From Chloranthus sessilifolius (lineage: Eukaryota; Streptophyta; Magnoliopsida; Chloranthales; Chloranthaceae): a stretch of 64,000 bases of DNA. The notes beneath the pieces were generated by a model. That model was not told the DNA's origin. It saw nothing but the letters and a program-made list of their open reading frames with translations, and made no database searches. The stretch lies in NCBI GenBank assembly GCA_021018995.1, contig CM037586.1, positions 152,810,060-152,874,059 on the forward strand, in the 5' to 3' direction. Positions 10,143-42,449 of this stretch are shown here, piece after piece (positions within the stretch are counted from its first letter, which is position 1; every line of letters begins with the position of its first letter). The translations under genes and the position numbers were made by a program.

Positions 10143-10151
10143 TTTGTTTAA

Positions 10152-10257
10152 GGGAAATTTGCACTTTCGGCCCTATATGTTTGCATATTTGCAGAAACGG
10201 CCCTATAGTTTCAATCCTTGCATAAATGGCCAGCTCCAAGCCTAGCCGCCTGCACGT

Positions 10258-10259
<2 letters not shown>
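10152..10259 (+). repeat. Left terminal inverted repeat of the MULE
   Basis: About 108 bp pairing with 18087-18203. Phrases shared after reverse complement include GGGAAATTTGCACTTTCGGC, GCAGAAACGGCCCTATAG and CCAGCTCCAAGCCTAGCCGC. In Mutator elements the transposase binds within this repeat. Confidence 0.93.

Positions 10260-10260
<1 letters not shown>

Positions 10261-10322
<62 letters not shown>
10261..10322. repeat. (AT)31 microsatellite at the inner edge of the MULE left TIR
   Basis: A perfect AT run of about 62 bp immediately inside the left inverted repeat; nothing comparable lies inside the right one. It produces a meaningless repetitive ORF. Confidence 0.95.
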
Positions 10323-10324
<2 letters not shown>

Positions 10325-10530
10325 TTCTCTATGCAAGCATTGAATCTAGAATTTCTGTATCATTTTTTAACACTTTCTATCTCTCTTGGAAAGCGATTTC
10401 GAGATTCCACTACAGGTCGTATAACATAGAGAATACAACAGGCTAGGTAAAATATCGAGTACAATATCTTTTTAAGTTATTGTTTTCCCAATTTTTCAAA
10501 ACATTGTAGGTAGTCCAAGATATAAAAGAT

Positions 10531-10675
10531 ATTGATCGATATCTTAAGTTATCGACCGATATCTTAAAAGAGGGTTTTTTTTTTAGTTTTTGGATTGTGG
10601 TTTACGTTAAGTCCATCGGCTAGATATCTTAGGATATCGGCCTGATATCTTAGGATATCGAGCGATATCCTATGA
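10531..10675. repeat. Palindrome array 1 of the MULE (ATCGACCGAT-type)
   Basis: Decamers ATTGATCGAT (10531) and ATCGACCGAT (10551) are followed by spacers of the form ATCTTAAGTT, a 20-bp period. After a ~55-bp gap, ATCGGC(T/C)-type words recur at 21-bp spacing with ATATCTTAGGAT spacers (about 10617-10675). It ends 130 bp before the transposase start and, if the ATTGTAG|G at ~10800 is a splice acceptor, lies in a 5' leader intron. Confidence 0.85.
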
Positions 10676-10808
10676 TTGACAAAAACGCTAAAGTTTTCAT
10701 TCCTTTCATTTTTTAATAATATTTTTAAATAATTGTAGCGCTAAGTCAAGTATAACTCTTTATAAACAACCAATTTTAATTTTAATTTTGTAAATATTGT
10801 AGGTTGAA

Positions 10809-13640
10809 ATGGACGTTCCCCTTCTTTGCCATTTTGATTTCGTACGCGTGAGAGATAATACTTACATCGGAGGACATCGGAGGATTGTCACTGTCACGGA
10901 GAATATATCATTTGATGAGTTTATAGAGAAAATGTACAAAGTCAGTCGGACACAACCGGAAGAACATGCTATTACACTTACTGTTTCATTACGCATAGGG
11001 AATGAGGTATTGTATTTAATTGTTCCGACTGATGATCTTACAAACTTATTTAGAGCATATCGTATCGGTGATGGTATGATAAATATTTATATCGAAAAAT
11101 CATTAGTCACTACTGTAGCAAACGAAGATGATCATGGTGTGAGAACAGAACATTTGATTGAAAATCAAGGAATACGGTATGAAGAGGAGAACATTGTTGC
11201 ACCGATAATAGCCGACGATGATAGAAATATGAATAGGATTTCGCCCCTACAGTAAACTTCTGGAGCAACCCTCTTCAGACATTCCGATGAGTGAAGACGA
11301 TGAAGATCAAGGATATTGTCATCAAATGAATCCGATGCATGATATATCTCAGTTCAACTTCGATTCGGTAAATCGCTGGAAATGTTTTAGTCCTTAGTCC
11401 ATATCAATGGCCTTCCGAACAAATAGCTTCAGAGCCAACGATAATCGAGCCTTCAACAGAACAGCCTCTCATACATCAAACATTCCCGCATCGGCTAACA
11501 TCAATCCAAACAACTGCACATCAACCAAGCGTACATCGACGCGCTCAATCCCAATCACGTAATAACTATCCAGTCGATGACGGTGATAGTGATCCTGAAA
11601 ATAATGAAGCTCCGCCGTCTCCCACTTCGCGTGTTTATACTAATAGGGGAATTGATCAACCTCTGGTGGACGAAGACTATCAGCTTAATGACTCGGAAGG
11701 AGAGTATGGATTCAGACGATGAGGAACTGTATGAAGGGGGAACGATTACCATTGGTCAGGCGTTTAGAAATAAGAAATTATTTCAAAAAGTTCTTAAAGA
11801 ATTTGCAATGACAAATAATTTTCAGATTAAACCAATAAAAACCAGTCCTCTTCGAGTTACTGCGAGGTGTGTTGAAGTAGGATGTGCTTGGCAAATACAT
11901 GCATCGAAATTAGTAGGCGTAGACACGTTTGCTGTGAAAACTTTCCACCCAGAACACACGTGCGGAATGCCCGCTTTTGGAAGCGGACATCGCCAATGTA
12001 CGACATCGTGGATAGCTTCATTCGTTAGAGATAAGCTATTAAAGGGTTTTGACGAGACTCCTGCTTCAATAATTTTTTATATTGAAAAAAATACGATAAC
12101 AAGAGGTTCTTTGAAAAGCATGGAGAGGAAAAGAAATGGTATTTGAATAACATCCGAGGTAGGGAAGGAGCAATTTAAGATAATCATATGTTCTTAGAAT
12201 TCTGGGTCGATCCGCATCTAATTGTGTCTCGAGCCTGATAATGCATTTCAGAGATTCTTCGTGGCATTCGGACCTTGCATTCGAAGCTTTCGTAATACTT
12301 TACGAAGAATAATTACGGTAGATGGAACGCATTTGCGTGGACGATACAAGGGAGTGTTGTTAATAGCTACGGGGATAGACGGGAATAGACATTTATTTCC
12401 TATAGCGTTCGGCGTTGTACCGAAAGAAAATGAAGACCATTGGACATGGTTTCTTGATCTATTAGGGAGACGAGTAATCGGTGAATTTGAAGAACTGTTT
12501 GTTTTGATATCAGACAGACAGAAAGGTTTGATGGAAGCAGTGGAAAAAAAATTTCCTAACGCCTTTCACAGCCATGGATCAAAATTTCGGCCGATACCGA
12601 TACGTATCGGACGATACGTATCGGTATTGGTATCGAACGATACATTGAATGTATCGTTCGATACATTCAATACAGTTGAATGTATCGAACGATACATTCA
12701 ATGTATCGTCCGATACCAACCGGTATCGATACGTATCGTCCGATACGTATCGTTTTGGAGCTCGGACGATACGTATCGGTAACCCGATATTTTGACCCAT
12801 GTTCACAGCTACTGTATGCGACACCTGGCTCTAAATCTGTTTGATAAATATAAGGATACAATCTCTATACCGCTTTTCTAGGTTGCTGCCCGTGCATTTT
12901 CAGAAGCAAAATTTAAAAGAATTATGCAAAAAATAGAAGACGACACCCCGCCGGAATGTATAAAATGGATTAAAGAAATTGGCGATCATTTCTGGGCACG
13001 CGCTTATTTCTAAGGGAGGCGTTATGATATGTTGACAACTAATATTGCTGAAAGCATAAATAGTGTGTTGAAAATAGCCAGGGAGGAACCGATTGTGAGC
13101 ATGTTAGAAACTATTCGCACAAAAGTAGCCGAATTTTATCTTCTTCGTCAGGAGGAAGGAAATAAAATGACACATATGTTAACACCGATGGCAGAAAAAC
13201 ACATAACAAGAAATTCAGGATGGGCCCGTCGAAAAAACGTCATACCATATGGTCGTGATATATTTCAAGTTAAACGTGGTGATTACACTCACAATGTCGA
13301 TCTAGAATCGCGAACATGTACATGTAGACGTTGGGCTATTCTTGGATTACCATGTTCACATGCGATCGCCGCATTATCGCGCCGAAACAGAGAAAGAGAG
13401 ATCCCCCAATTTTGTGAACACTGGTTTACCAGTGACTTATTTAGGGAAACTTATAAAGAACACTTTGTCCCGACCATTGACAAGCGCCAATGGACTTCGC
13501 AAATAAAAGACATTCAAGTTTTGCCTCCCCACAAAATACGTCAAGCCGGCCGTCCGAAGAAAAGGAGAATAAGATCTAAAAGCGAAGTTCGACCACTACA
13601 ATGTAAAAATTGTAACAAGTACGATCATAACCGTCGCTAG
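10809..13640 (+). pseudogene. MURA-type transposase of the MULE, interrupted
   Basis: Catalyses cut-and-paste movement of the element. The N-terminal block (10809-11255) is the PB1-like module seen in plant MULE transposases. The MuDR-type zinc/DNA-binding region is at about 11750-11980 (ARCVEVGCAWQIHA, then FHPEHTC). The DDE core starts with Asp in TVDGTHLRG (12321) and Asp in SDRQKG (12513). The MITE at 12573-12801 then splits the core; it resumes near 12806 (HLALNLFDKY) and continues through TNIAESINSVLK (~13036). A SWIM zinc finger (CTCRRWAILGLPCSH) lies at about 13315-13362, and a knuckle-like CKNCNKYDHNRR sits at the very end, its expected last Cys falling just after the stop. Stops and frame changes also occur near 11256, 12147 and 13012, so this copy cannot make the enzyme. 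Start chosen at the PB1-like Met, just after a good splice-acceptor sequence. Confidence 0.92.
12573..12801. mobile_element. Palindrome-rich hAT-type MITE inside the transposase gene
   Basis: 229 bp with ends CATGGATCAAAATTTCGG and (reverse complement) CATGGGTCAAAATATCGG, flanked by a perfect 8-bp target duplication TTCACAGC (12565-12572, 12802-12809). The body is a chain of 14-bp words GTATCG-NN-CGATAC (centres GA, AA, TT, TC), several 21 bp apart. It is non-coding but open on the + strand, so the upstream ORF reads into it to 12782. Confidence 0.9.
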
Positions 13641-14620
13641 TGTAAATTTGTAAATATTTGAAATTAACTTATATTACTTCAAAGTTTGAGATTGAAAACA
13701 GATTGAGATTAGATTAGACCTAGTGGCGATCGAGCTTCCAAATGATCTCATTATAGAAGAGTATTTTTTTTCTCTTTTTCTTTCCTTCAACATCAACAGA
13801 TTGGACCTCAATAAAAGAGCGATCAACATCCGACAATTAATTAATATATTTTTTTGGACTAATAATTAAGTTTTGGAATTGTGATTGAAATATATTGCTG
13901 TGCTTAATAAATCATTCATTCAAACAGGATTTGAAGTTGCCAAATTCGCCCCTAATCTACTAGTGATTGGCATAGAGCCCTACCAAAGATACCTAGCTTC
14001 ACAATTCCAAAAGGTAGATGACTTCAAATCACCGTCCAATATCTTAAATCATCGGCCGATATTTTAAATCATCGGCCGATATTTTAAGTAATCGGACGAT
14101 ATCTTAAATCATCGGCCGATGATTTAAGATATCGGCCGATGATTTAAGATATCGGCCGATATCTTAAATCATTGGCCGATAATTTAAATCATCGGCCATC
14201 ATTGGCCGATAATTTAAATCATCGGCCGATATCTTAAATCATCGGCCGATTGTTTAAGATATCGTCCGATTACTTAAAATATCGGCTGATTACTTAAAAT
14301 ATCGGCCGATTGTTTAAGATATCGGCCGATGATTTAAGATATCGGACGATGATTTAAAATATTGGCCGATATTTTAAGTCATCGGCCGATTGGAATTGCT
14401 TCAAGAGAGGAAGGCTCCGTTGATGAATCAGGCAAGGTGAAATCTAAACATTAGATAAGTAATTGTTAGACAAATAAGATAAATTGATAACAACGAAAAT
14501 GAAAATTATACAAGTTAATAATAAAAATTAATAAAATTAATTATTTACAATTTCATCAAAAAAAATCTCTACAAAAGTCTAAAAAATTTTACAGACATAT
14601 TTAACTATTCTTCCCAAACG
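13641..14620. other. Space between the two convergent MULE genes
   Basis: Non-coding, holding palindrome array 2 (14041-14393). Outside the array it is AT-rich with no other feature. It contains the 3' ends of both genes; no clear polyadenylation signal could be assigned. Confidence 0.7.
14041..14393. repeat. Palindrome array 2 of the MULE: 18 decamers at 20-bp spacing
   Basis: Eighteen copies of the self-complementary decamer ATCGGCCGAT (or one- to three-base variants: ATCGGACGAT, ATTGGCCGAT, ATCGTCCGAT, ATCGGCTGAT) start at 14051, 14071, 14091 and so on to 14381, each separated by a 10-bp spacer. The only phase shift is one 10-bp step at 14191-14201. Spacers are ATCTTAAATC-like or its reverse complement GATTTAAGAT-like, so whole 20-bp units occur in both orientations within one array. 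Confidence 0.97.
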
Positions 14621-17600
14621 TGCACATTAGATGTCCGATTTCGGCTCTAAATTGTTGCATATGTTTATCGTCGAAATCAATAGGCCGCTGTTGGGAGAAG
14701 TATTCTATATACTTCAAAACGTATACACCGCAATCCCAACTGTTTTCTTGGATCGGAGACGACGTTGAACGCCGATACCTTCCTTTCGTTGATCGAAGTC
14801 GACTTCAAACCGACAACAGAAAGAAGGCGCGGAAGGTGATTCAATAGACATTCTTTATGCGCTTCAAACCTTCTTGAGCACTCTCTTGGATCTATTAGCA
14901 ATTTCTCGACCAACTAATGAAATTATAGCCAACGCCAGTGGCTATGTTTTGGCTATGCATCGAAGATAAATCTACACATAAATGTAACCGAAATTTTAAA
15001 TAATAAATTTTATTTAAAAGCCGTTAACGTTAAATAAAGCGAAGTTTAGTATTCAAAAGCGTCGCATTTCCACGATCGATCGCGTGAATTCATGGATATT
15101 ATTTGTCAATAGTGGTTCCATCGGCTTTGAATTATAACATGCCATTCACAATAGGCTAGGCACGCCACCTATCAAGGTCAGAGCGTTTATACCTTCATTA
15201 TCGATATATTTTTCAAAATTTTTCTCGTCTGCCATAAATAAGGTCTGAAACAGGATAATGTAGTAAGTAAATAAATTAGAAGAAGTTAATCAAGAGTCGT
15301 GATTGAAAAGACAAATAAAAGAAACAAACGAGCTTCCAATAAATATTTTTAAGAAACTTTTTTCGATTGTCGTAAACATTGAATCGTTTATAACTTCAAG
15401 GACTCTCGAGTACGCGTCGATGACTTCATTGTCAAGCCACGAGCGTCCTTTGAGAACCTTCAAAAGAGCAACTGTGATGTCAACACCCCTGATAGTATTG
15501 ACGATCACATTGTCCTCGTTCTCTGGCCGATTCCAAAAACTAAGCATATACTTTTGCTCCATTGATTTTGCCCCATCCTCCTCCTCCACAACCAATCTTG
15601 GTTTTTTTATTATTGCTTTAGTGGTCGGAGACTTTCTCTTCTTACGAGCACGCAAGTCATAACCTTCGGCTTCATTTTTTGCAGATGATAGTTTCACTAT
15701 AATTGTTTTTAGTGATGCCGACTGTGACTCACGAGAAGGCTGCGTAAGAGGAGCACCATCATCACCCACATCAACCAAGGGTTGTTTAGTAGGCTGAGGA
15801 GTAGTAGGTTTTGGGGGAGCAGGTTTAGTGGCAGTAGATTTATGGGTAAGTTGAGGAGCGACGGGTTTTGGGGCAGTTGATTGTTGTCTTGGTTGAGGAG
15901 CAGTGGGTTTTGGGGCACTGGACTGATGGCTTGGTTGAGTAGACTGATGGCTTTGTTGATGAGTGGTGGGTTGAGGGACAGTTGATTGAGGATAAGTGGG
16001 GGAAGGAACGAAGGTGTCAAATAGCACAGAGGTTAAAATATTATCCTGCATAATTGCAAAAAAAAATACATTACAAAAAATAAAAAAATAAAAAACCGCA
16101 TTATCGACCGATAATGTATATTATCGACCGATAATATACATTATCGGTCGATAATTTAAATTATCGTCCGCTAATGTACATTATCGATCGACTATTTAAA
16201 TTATCGTCCGATACGTTACATCGTCGGACGATAAGTTCCATCGTCGGACGACAAGCTAATTTTGCATTAATTTGTAAAGAATTGATTTTGTTCTAAATTT
16301 GAAAAGGCTTGGTTTGGTACCTTTCTTAAATGAGAGATGACCGCATCAAGATCCTTCCGTATTGCTTTATTTTCTTCTTGTAAGGCCTTCTTATCTCTCC
16401 CGAGTTGTTCAATGGTGAGTGCTTGCCCTTTGAGCAGCGTAAATGCAGAATTCTTTTTCATGTCTTTTACAGACCATGCGAGGCGTCTTGCATTCTTTTC
16501 TAAGCTCGTTACTTCTTTGGTTAGGTGTGCTTAACCGGTCGCTCTCTTGTTGGCTGGGGCCTAATATCCGGTTTGCCCTTTGGTTGACGTACAACGACCT
16601 CAAAATCATCGTTTTCGTCGCTGTAATCTTCGTCATCCTCATTGTCGTCATCTCAGCTAATCGGCTCTTCGGCTCTTTCTTCGGGACGTGTCGCAGGACA
16701 TGGGATATCATCATATTCATCTATATTTTCTCCGAAGTAAGGCTCTTCTCTCTCCTCGGTCTCTTCCTTCTTATTTTCCATTTCTCTTCGAATCAAAAAG
16801 TATCGAACCCATTTATACTGTAATTCGTGCTTTTCAACTTCAAGCTCTAAAATCACTTTAGACTTAAGAAATTTTTCTCGATATAAATTAAGATTACGGC
16901 TGAATTTCGGGCCTTCCCATTTCATTAGCCTTGGAAATGGTTCTTTAAGCCCAATAGGAGCGGTGGCGACTGCAGGAAAGTGCTCAAACGCCCAAATCTG
17001 TAAGGCGATAGTGCATCCGTAGATGTTGTATTGCCCCTTTTCTAACCTTTTCGCCATTTCCCTTCTGCCACTTGCTTTTGATATACTATCTAATAAATTA
17101 TTGTAAACTATCAGGCCCCACGGTAACTTGTTGAACTCTTCAATGTTATCTACTAATTCTAAGTACCGTGTACCTACTTCCTGGTATGTGTCCGGAAGTA
17201 AAAAAGAACATACGAAAAATAATAATGATAGTTTCAAAAAATCATCGTTGGATAAATCAGCACTGTCAATAATTTCTTCAATACGAGATCTTTTCGCCGG
17301 CTTCCCCCGAAAGAATTTGTATCGAATAGTTGTTTCCTCTTTTATGGCCACCTTCTCAGACTCAGGTTCCGTCAACATGTTGAGGCCTAAAATCAAGGCT
17401 ATATCGATCTCTTACAGGAGTACATTGGTGTTCTTGACCTTGAAAACATTATCTTCAACCCAAAAACTTAAAATAGCGTCAACCAAGTCTCCAACGAATC
17501 CTAATTTCTCATTCATCCTAAATAGATGACCGAATACTGAATCATCTAATATTTTCTCTCTCTTCGTTACAGTGCATGTAAAATTTCTTAACACCAACTC

Positions 17601-17630
17601 TAGAACATTTTCCGATGGGCTTTAGAGTCA
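14620..17630 (-). pseudogene. DUF1985 / Ulp1-like protease gene carried by the MULE
   Basis: Reads right to left. The DUF1985 region spans about 17597-16653 (FGHLFRMNEKLGFVGDLVDA; later LSLLFFVCSFLLPDTY and YGCTIALQIWAFEHFP, the signatures of this plant-transposon domain). A coiled-coil exon (16461-16321) ends at a good donor (AAAG|GTACC); the next exon starts after a good acceptor (TTATGCAG|G, ~16048). That exon is rich in Pro/Gln/Thr, then basic, then has a WLDNEVIDAY motif (~15400) like the substrate-binding motif of Ulp1/C48 proteases. The catalytic His-Trp is at 14935-14940 and the Gln...Asp-Cys-Gly motif, in the phrase ENSWDCGVYVLKYIE, at about 14704-14750. Stops between these motifs show this copy is broken. 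Ulp1 enzymes cleave SUMO-like modifiers; the role in MULEs is unknown. The first exon probably begins at ATGACCATGACTC near 17630, just after an acceptor (ATATTGCAG). Confidence 0.85.
16101..16260. repeat. Palindrome array 3 of the MULE: eight exact 20-bp units
   Basis: Eight consecutive 20-bp units start at 16101, 16121 ... 16241. Each carries a TTATCG-NN-CGATAA-type 14-mer (centres AC, AC, GT, TC, AT, TC; the last two are TCGTCGGACGA) followed by a 6-bp AT-rich spacer. The array lies inside the probable intron 16048-16321 of the DUF1985/Ulp1 gene. Confidence 0.96.
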
Positions 17631-17730
17631 TGGTCATTTTCAATCACTTAGTAGGAACTGCAATATAAATAAAAAGCAATTAATAAACAAAAGAAGTGAT
17701 TTTGAAAAAACTACTAATCCGCTAACTTAC

Positions 17731-17852
17731 CGATAACTTACCGATAACTTAAGTTATTGATCGATAATTTAAGTTATCGATCGATAACTTAAGTTATCGG
17801 TCGATAATTTAAGTTATCGATCGACAACTTAAATTATCGATAAGTTATCGGA
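17731..17852. repeat. Palindrome array 4 of the MULE: TTATCGATCGATAA at 20-bp spacing
   Basis: Four 20-bp units begin at 17754, 17774, 17794 and 17814 (TTAT(T/C)G(A/G)TCGA(T/C)AA + TTTAAG-like spacer), with partial CGATAACTTA words on both sides. The array is just upstream of the probable first coding exon of the minus-strand gene, apparently in its leader intron (acceptor near 17665). Confidence 0.94.
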
Positions 17853-18086
17853 TTAGGTGGGAAACATTGGGGATGACTAAATGTGCTGAAATGTAAAAAA
17901 AATAAATTATCTGGAAATGTAATGTGACCTTTGTGACCTTTTTCCGCTTTGTCGCCGCTATCTTGTTTTTTTCAGAAAAGTTAAACTTAAAAAGTAACAG
18001 TAACAAATGAAAAGTAAAAGTAGCTTTTATACTCTCTTTTAAAGGGCGGTGGAAAATTTTTTATATTATTTAAAATAGGCCCTTCC

Positions 18087-18203
18087 TGACGTGGAGCAGG
18101 CGAAGGCGGCTAGGCTTGGAGCTGGTCATTAATGCAACGGTTGAAACTATAGGGCCGTTTCTGCAAATACACAAACATATAGGGCCGAAAGTGCAAATTT
18201 CCC
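18087..18203 (-). repeat. Right terminal inverted repeat of the MULE
   Basis: Reverse complement of the left repeat, with small differences (117 bp). It ends GTGCAAATTTCCC and is followed by the second TTTGTTTAA. Confidence 0.93.
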
Positions 18204-18212
18204 TTTGTTTAA

Positions 18213-19886: not shown

Positions 19887-20591
19887 TGACGCATGACGAT
19901 TGTCGCAAGCTAACCCTAAAATAGCATAATCCCTCGCGGAAGGGAGTTTAGGGTCTTAATCCTTTCAAAAAAATAAAATAAAAAGAAGAATAAGATAAGA
20001 GATCTCCGGATTCGCTCTAAAGAGGTTTGTCGGCTCCACACCAACGGGTTTCCAAGGCTTCCCACCAAGGCTGTACGTCGGCTTCGCACCAAGTCGTACG
20101 AGAAACGACTGCTCATTTCTCAGGTTTTGAAAGAATCACTCCTTCGATCGAAAACTCATCTCAAGTTTGTCTAGGGTTTGCACAAAATCAAGCTCTCAAT
20201 TTTCATTATTCAAAAACTGTTTATTACAAAGCTATAAAGACCTTTATATAGTAGGTCATAAAACAAACGAAAAACCTAAAACAATTAAATAATAAAAGAT
20301 AAGTTTAACCTTGAAACTTAAATTCGAAATTGAAATTTAAAACTACTCTGCGCGATTTCGATCGATCGAAAGTGACACTCGATCGATCGAAATTCAATCA
20401 ATCAATCAAAAGTGGTACTCGATCGATCGAATTGCAATTTCGATCGATCGAAATCCTCAATCGACTTAGACAGTCGCGAATCTTTGCTTCAGGGCCGTTT
20501 GAAAGCCCATTCATGGATCCACTACTTCCTTGCTGATTTTCTTCGGTTGGCTCGGCCACGATCCGAACATGCGGATCTAAATTCCCCATCA
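19887..20591 (-). repeat. LTR of the antisense Gypsy relic, with U3 palindromes
   Basis: 705 bp. On the minus strand: TGATGGGG start, palindrome block (20351-20465), TATA box TATATAAAGG (20250-20241), transcribed region, terminus GCGTCA next to a TTTTGGTATCAAAGCC primer-binding site at 19886-19868. Confidence 0.88.
20351..20465. repeat. TCGATCGATCGA palindromes at ~20-bp spacing in the LTR U3
   Basis: Perfect dodecamers TCGATCGATCGA start at 20358, 20379, 20419 and 20440. A degenerate copy TCAATCAATCAA starts at 20398, completing a series with steps of 21, 19, 21 and 21 bp. The flanks AAAGTGACAC and AAAGTGGTAC are repeated as well. Confidence 0.95.
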
Positions 20592-41557: not shown

Positions 41558-42449
41558 TGACGGGGAATGTCAAGATCGAACAGCAACGAGAGGAAAAACA
41601 CAAAGTTCTGGAGTGACATATTTCGATCGATCGAATCACATACTCGATCGATCGAAATCCTGCAGCAAATTATTGATATGTTTTTCAATCGATCGAGTTT
41701 CACTTTCGATCGATCAAAATCGCGTCGAGTTGTTTTAAAGTTCTAATTTCGAAATTAAGTTTTAGGGGCTTATTCGTCTTTTACTTAGTACGTGTTTTAG
41801 GGTTTTCTTTTATTGTAAGACCTCCTATATAAGGTCCTTAAGCTAAACAATGTAATTAGTTGATTGATTATTGAATGAGAGCTTTTGCTTTGTGAAAAGA
41901 GAGTCTTCTTCCCCGTGATGGGTTTGGTGTGAGACCAAGGGAGTGATTCCCATATATCTTGCTATTCTTTATCTTCAATTTGCGTGATCTCTTATATTTG
42001 CTATCTCGCGATCTGTGTTTGCTTTTTTAAACCTTAGCCTAATTGTTTCCTTGCGATCCCAAAACCTAAACCTTTTGAATTCCTAACCAAACAAATCCAA
42101 TACCCTTTTCCAAACCATAAACCAATCCGAGAACCATAAGCCTTTTACAAACCGTAAATCCCTTTCACAACCCAATTTAGAATCCGTGAATCTACATCGG
42201 ACTGAAGACGAGCGCCCAAGCCTGGAAAAGCCAGAGTCCTATCTCTAGGCCGATCTCGCCTCAACTCTAGACGTATTTGCACACCGGACTGGACCCAATC
42301 TGGATATCGTGTGATCTACCCATCAAAATTCTGCAAACCCTAAAAGTATCAAAAATAATTTTGCGATTAAACTTGAATTAATTTATTTAATTTCGGCAAA
42401 TCTACATTAAAATCATATTCACGCATTTTAGGGTCGTTGTCCCGCGTCA
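41558..42449 (+). mobile_element. Solo LTR (Gypsy, same family type as at 2.0 and 47.6 kb)
   Basis: 892 bp, TGACGGGGAATG...CCCGCGTCA, with a perfect 5-bp duplication ACAGG (41553-41557, 42450-42454). TATA box TATATAAG at 41826-41833. It shares the family phrases GATGGGTTTGGTGTGAG, GGAAAAGCCAGAGTCCTATC and ACGCATTTTAGGG with the Gypsy LTRs at 2013 and 47588. No coding sequence remains. Confidence 0.93.
41621..41718. repeat. TCGATCGATCGA palindromes at ~20-bp steps in the solo LTR U3
   Basis: Copies start at 41623, 41644, 41685 (TCAATCGATCGA) and 41706 (TCGATCGATCAA): steps of 21, 41 (2 x 20.5) and 21 bp. The position, between the LTR start and the TATA box, matches the array in the relic at 20351-20465. 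Confidence 0.94.

Follow-up and report, generated by a model that had tools for sequence, protein, structure and literature searches.

Phased CpG-palindrome arrays in the non-coding DNA of a Chloranthus Mutator-like element family as candidate targets of a VANC-like DUF1985-Ulp1 protein

The closest described counterparts of the system considered here are the VANC proteins of the Arabidopsis VANDAL Mutator-like elements (MULEs), and the system itself is carried by an 8,052-bp MULE of Chloranthus sessilifolius, which occupies positions 10152-18203 of the window, as we term the whole 64,000-nucleotide stretch analyzed (contig CM037586.1). According to passages of one report (PMC5735166), VANC21 binds YAGTATTAY-bearing probes in vitro, its targets are located in tandem repeats upstream of VANA and within introns of VANB and VANC, and VANC proteins are depicted with DUF1985 and DUF287. 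A section of a 2026 review (PMC13317346) adds KIU (Kaonashi), in which VANC genes with an Ulp1 domain are said to act on motifs in the non-coding DNA of KIU-bearing elements. The present system resembles VANC21 and VANC6 in that a MULE encodes a DUF1985 protein and bears tandem short motifs in introns and ahead of the transposase, and in that the unit number changes fast and related families carry different words. In contrast, the VANC21 and VANC6 motifs (YAGTATTAY and AGTTGTCC/AC) are non-palindromic and without CpG, whereas the word found here is palindromic, contains CpG and recurs on a 20-bp grid; the present system also differs in its Ulp1 domain, its terminal inverted repeats (TIRs) of ~100 bp and the absence of a DUF287 match in the exons scanned with Pfam, and binding and hypomethylation would apply to it by analogy. 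VANDAL MULEs are mostly without long TIRs, unlike this element, although some VANDAL relatives do have TIRs, as stated in part of another report (PMC6446971). The likeness to KIU, which is drawn through the review only, is that a VANC-type gene of a MULE appears to be joined to an Ulp1 domain. Another element-encoded protein, TnpA of maize Spm, binds a short motif with CpG that occurs in arrays, and it has been associated with demethylation; it is a different protein from a different superfamily, and its motifs are subterminal and not in introns. The plant mobile domain (PMD) proteins MAIN and MAIL1 are also comparable, as PMD tops the Pfam matches of the window protein; in the portion of the MAIN/MAIL1 report that bears on this point (PMC7156037), genes down-regulated in the mutants have a promoter motif in common, but these are host proteins supporting silencing and not anti-silencing factors encoded by a transposable element. 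Palindromes are not mentioned in the two VANC papers examined for the term, which is weak evidence of novelty, and no further literature on DUF1985 targets beyond VANC was recognized. Ulp1-bearing VANC systems have already been published according to the reviewed account (PMC13317346, in part), and the phased CpG-palindrome form would be a variant.

Four arrays of the palindromic word ATCGNNCGAT were found in the non-coding DNA of the Chloranthus MULE, and we put at roughly 0.57 the probability that they are cis targets of an Ulp1-type (KIU-like) VANC anti-silencing system encoded by the MULE family itself. Because the DUF1985 gene is related to a known anti-silencing protein, the words are probable docking sites of the element's protein, and the placement of the arrays, which resembles that of the VANC21 targets, was counted for this reading. 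The four arrays had been reported in a preliminary description of the window, and we confirmed them with coordinates within ~15 bases of those given there. In particular, A1 (10526-10673) precedes the probable start codon of the transposase (ATG at 10809), A2 (14026-14397; ~18 20-bp units) lies in the gap where the 3' ends of the two genes converge, A3 (16098-16257; 20-bp step) within the intron of the DUF1985 gene, and A4 (17731-17852) ~95-215 bp upstream of the inferred ATG of that gene. The element contains 27 exact copies of the word, six of them inside a nested miniature inverted-repeat transposable element (MITE), compared with a mean of 0.19 and a maximum of 2 in 200 dinucleotide shuffles. 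The CG-NN-CG center and 20-bp step that the preliminary description assigned to all four arrays were found in A2-A4, but A1 was partly decayed, with 20- or 21-bp steps and only two exact core words. The four arrays were also said never to lie in exons; this was true of all four, but a fifth palindrome cluster (~12.6 kb) is located in a transposase exon, and we rejected it as part of the MULE design because it belongs to the MITE, which has its own target-site duplication (TSD).

The distances between successive core words (up to 130 bp; 36 loci, n = 434) were 20 bp in 353 cases, 40 bp in 58, 60 bp in five and another value in 18. A single CGNNCG dyad plus a spacer make up each 20-bp unit, and the orientation of the half-sites therefore flips at intervals of about 10 bp. 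The information per position in A2, A3 and A4 was high at ATCG..CGAT and low at the two central bases, although the conservation of the core is somewhat inflated because units were placed by their core. We also observed that A2-A4 (and A1 by eye) have a common core with array-specific spacers. In the genome searched, which was the window's own assembly (2.17 Gb), the paired ATCGNNCGAT word had 6,753 matches and its reversed control had none. The 50 of these places that were listed, all in the first 7 Mb of contig C1, lay in six elements of the MULE family, and on these grounds the idea that such palindromes are a general feature of the genome was rejected.

The arrays are family-wide and restricted to non-coding DNA. 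Family members were retrieved with the 251-aa DUF1985 exon and not with the word, which gave 6,192 first-look candidates; 150 of these were scored, all of them 85-100% identical to the DUF1985 exon of the window, and the first 30, including the window copy, were analyzed with their flanks. The intron array was present in all 30 copies, with 2-15 core words each and with this variation occurring between copies whose DUF1985 exons were a few percent apart. Core words upstream of the DUF1985 gene numbered at least one in 26 of the 30 copies and at least two in 21, while L023, L025, L031 and L036 kept the intron array and had no exact core word upstream of that gene. Within these elements, 386 core words fell in 32.6 kb of non-coding DNA versus one in 59.0 kb of coding DNA, coding being defined as the bases aligned by tblastn to the exons of the window copy. 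Arrays thus occur in most family members and are not equally common in exons, so that neither of these refuting conditions of the preliminary description applied. Six other full copies, which form a biased sample because they were found by the word itself, carried their arrays in matching positions: at least one word was present for each of A2, A3 and A4 in 6/6, and A1 was present in all four copies whose left end was fully seen (L016-L019), the fetched stretch of L020 being without that end and L021 being cut there. Together with the window copy, they held 162 words in non-coding and two in coding DNA, where the former figure includes the words of the window MITE and also four from an insertion nested in L021.

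To compare words between DUF1985 families, ten loci were picked, blind to any word, from 150 scored DUF1985-profile hits; four of them formed family II (L056, L057, L060 and L061), which is 34-38% identical to the window family (family I), and six formed family III. The family-II loci revealed a different palindrome, RGCGNNNNCGCY, in 6, 3, 9 and 7 copies, respectively (resampled means 0.03-0.11), and ATCGNNCGAT was not found in any of the four. Exact RGCGNNNNCGCY copies preceded the DUF1985 match by no more than ~450 bp in three of the four loci (all but L057) and closely followed it in all four, where the sequence looks intron-like by eye (AAG|GTAAAT ... TTGTAG), and further copies lay downstream in L057 and L060. 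The family-II half-sites (GAAGCG/CGCTTC) were mostly 10-12, 21-23, 31-33 and 41-44 bp apart, which corresponds to a step of ~21 bp, and the two CpGs were separated by 4 bp, compared with 2 bp in family I. In the listed part of C1, the paired family-II word lay within 5 kb of five of seven family-II DUF1985 hits (binomial tail 6e-12, assuming a uniform spread) and of none of 13 family-I hits. The VANC21 and VANC6 words were found only zero to one time per locus at 12 loci of the new families. The word therefore varies with the DUF1985 family, on a comparison of two word-bearing families, as would follow from the suggestion of the preliminary description that the DUF1985 protein may recognize it; that suggestion is supported in part.

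We found profile-level homology between the DUF1985 proteins and VANC21, in agreement with the VANC relationship proposed earlier. A profile of the three families searched against the PDB gave VANC21 (9lnj, 9lnk) as the sole match with E <1 (E 6.3e-9); VANC21 was also the best PDB match of the profile of families I and II (E 0.0014), and a single family-III member had VANC21 as its best PDB match (1.4e-4). The DUF1985 exon is under purifying selection, as judged from a dN/dS (ratio of nonsynonymous to synonymous substitution rates) of 0.283 among the 28 of 30 exons that aligned without gaps; 19 of these 28 were stop-free.

The DUF1985 gene lies on the minus strand. Its first exon (16321-17637, with the start inferred from the frame of L023) encodes the N-terminus, the DUF1985/plant mobile domain, an acidic stretch and a coiled coil, in which a weak bZIP match was below the cut-off; in the window copy this exon is interrupted by a stop (17412-17414) and by a frameshift. 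Among Pfam domains, PMD scored highest for the window protein (2.9e-11), and DUF1985 (PF09331, E 1.3e-8) scored 35.4 bits in the window copy and 36.8 bits in L023 against a cut-off of 35.1. The exon is followed by the GT-AG intron that holds A3 (16046-16320), with the donor and the acceptor each present in 29 of 30 copies, and by an open stretch (15293-16045) of Pro/Gln/Thr repeats and then basic residues, without a Pfam match and with its far border unset. The Ulp1/C48 protease domain region (14604-14913; PF02902, 4e-12) contains a DCG cysteine motif and is frameshifted in the window copy. Its His-Trp, Asp, Gln and Cys motifs are legible in copy L018. From the sequence, the Ulp1 domain looks like a downstream part of the same gene as DUF1985, a single transcript being assumed.

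On these grounds, a mechanism can be proposed in which the DUF1985/plant-mobile-domain protein would dock on the ATCGNNCGAT half-sites in the leaders, the intron and the intergenic gap, as a dimer or a row of dimers held together by the coiled coil. As the dyads recur every 20 bp, the sites would lie on one helix face, and many molecules could be loaded side by side. The bound protein would keep or render the non-coding stretches methylation-free, so that the transposase and the DUF1985 protein could be expressed from the unmethylated gaps, and the Ulp1 part may strip SUMO from silencing factors. Family II would have its own protein and its own word, RGCGNNNNCGCY, with a step of ~21 bp. A bolder version, which we regard as doubtful, is a helix-phased, methylation-sensitive switch; here a DUF1985-Ulp1 filament would form along CpG half-sites that change direction every 10 bp, bind unmethylated CpGs only and create a self-propagating 'on' state, and the step (20 vs 21 bp) and CpG gap (2 vs 4 bp) would separate the sister families like keys. 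The VANC systems elucidated in Arabidopsis use motifs that are neither palindromic nor CpG-bearing, and here a large family and a second CpG-palindrome family occur in one genome. If the proposal is true, they would be natural protein-word pairs for probing which determinants set specificity and whether methylation of the CpGs within the site is the switch, and they could supply orthogonal components with which methylation is directed at loci of choice.

Several observations weigh against an anti-silencing role of the arrays. At the protein level, neither the family-I profile alone (E 0.58, although VANC21 was the top match) nor L023 alone (E 0.28) matched VANC21 significantly, and VANC21 was not among the PDB matches of L060 alone; as far as these profiles can tell, the VANC21 link of the window protein is one that runs through the wider DUF1985 family. 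The missing DUF287 match also counts here, and because of it we did not file the gene as VANC21/VANC6 type. At the level of the words, no array was seen within 3.3 kb at the six family-III loci, which contained neither word except for one match in L055, and no CG palindrome was among their most over-represented 7-mers. Some words of L056 and L060 lie in an open frame, so their non-coding status is a reading by eye. The family-II pair was matched 797 times genome-wide, fewer than its reversed control (3,358), so the count alone is no evidence; it was discarded, and co-location was used instead. Additionally, CpG decay of the arrays was not uniformly below that of exons: CpG transitions in the array cores were 26/1,336 in A3, 4/420 in A4 and 14/352 in A2, compared with 3.35% for exon CpGs, and this comparison is biased by the finding of units by their core; lower decay was accordingly dropped as a sign of hypomethylation. 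Finally, the word comparison is limited to two word-bearing families, whose transposases may have diverged alongside.

This last point bears on the strongest alternative, namely that the arrays are sites of the transposase (through DBD_Tnp_Mut or SWIM) or of an accessory protein and serve end assembly or autoregulation. En/Spm and Ac have subterminal motif arrays, A1 and A4 are roughly symmetric about the element ends (~370-520 bp and ~350-470 bp from their respective ends), and the family comparison alone cannot assign the word to the DUF1985 protein over the transposase. Nevertheless, we consider this explanation unlikely, as A2, the largest array, and A3 in the intron lie in the interior, where end assembly does not require them, and the DUF1985 homologue VANC21 binds motif arrays in just such gaps. 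It is also improbable that a host factor binds the arrays as modules of a promoter, a terminator or a boundary. Such modules would suit the position of two arrays just upstream of both genes and of one between the converging 3' ends, but the same word is retained in an intron, two families in one host use different words, and a host word would be expected elsewhere too, whereas the 50 listed places were all in the MULE family. We gave still less credit to an effect through RNA, in which long hairpins would feed small RNAs and the arrays would be silencing triggers and not escape sites. A2 folded as RNA with -239 kcal/mol (z -24.6), targets of RNA-directed DNA methylation are over-represented in Arabidopsis VANC target regions according to part of PMC10398659, and in tea, plant mobile domain genes are loci of phased small interfering RNAs according to part of PMC10673657. 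However, any alternating inverted repeat folds in this way, and it is left unexplained why the ATCG..CGAT core is fixed while its central bases vary freely and why a silencing trigger would be retained. Least probable of all are neutral minisatellites that grew by slippage and survived where harmless, because, although intron arrays of 2-15 words among copies with near-alike DUF1985 exons would fit them and purifying selection would account for the absence from exons, A2-A4 (and A1 by eye) have the same core and step despite their different spacers, the intron array is present in 30/30 copies, and another word takes up comparable positions in a second family.

The remaining features of the element were as follows. 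The intact termini and 9-bp duplication of the preliminary description were verified: the left (10152-10251) and right (18104-18203) TIRs pair as arms of 102 nt with 94% complementarity, TIRs are present in fetched copies too, and the TSD TTTGTTTAA was read off the sequence on both flanks (10143-10151 and 18204-18212). The MULE contains two converging genes, a MuDR-type transposase on the plus strand and the DUF1985 gene on the minus strand. Both are broken in the window copy by the nested MITE, a stop and frameshifts, and this degenerate copy would be at most a target in trans. The transposase gene (10806-13637), whose frames are interrupted here, revealed matches to the DBD_Tnp_Mut (11664-12143, E 2e-12), MULE (12222-12575, E 6e-17) and SWIM (13014-13637, E 2e-10) domains and a weak PB1-like match below the cut-off at the N-terminus.

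The 229-bp MITE in the transposase exon (12573-12801) is flanked by an 8-bp TSD, TTCACAGC (12565-12572 and 12802-12809), and from this duplication length we presume that it is hAT-like. Its end word had 5,697 matches genome-wide, and the reversed control had none. The six ATCGNNCGAT palindromes that it carries are spaced by steps of 21-31 bp and may be due to chance, or the MITE may be a hitch-hiker on the same protein. Elsewhere in the window, degenerate GATACCGATAC-type palindromes at 1708-1950 resemble the MITE interior by eye. Genome-wide, two CGCNNNNGCG words 21 bp apart, which served as the reversed control for the family-II pair, had more matches than the word itself, and CGCNNNNGCG pairs are perhaps another array family. 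Clusters of the palindrome TCGATCGATCGA, which again contains CpG and differs from the MULE word, were observed at 20358-20464 and 41620-41710, the latter upstream of a TATA-like stretch, and they perhaps sit in long terminal repeat retrotransposons.

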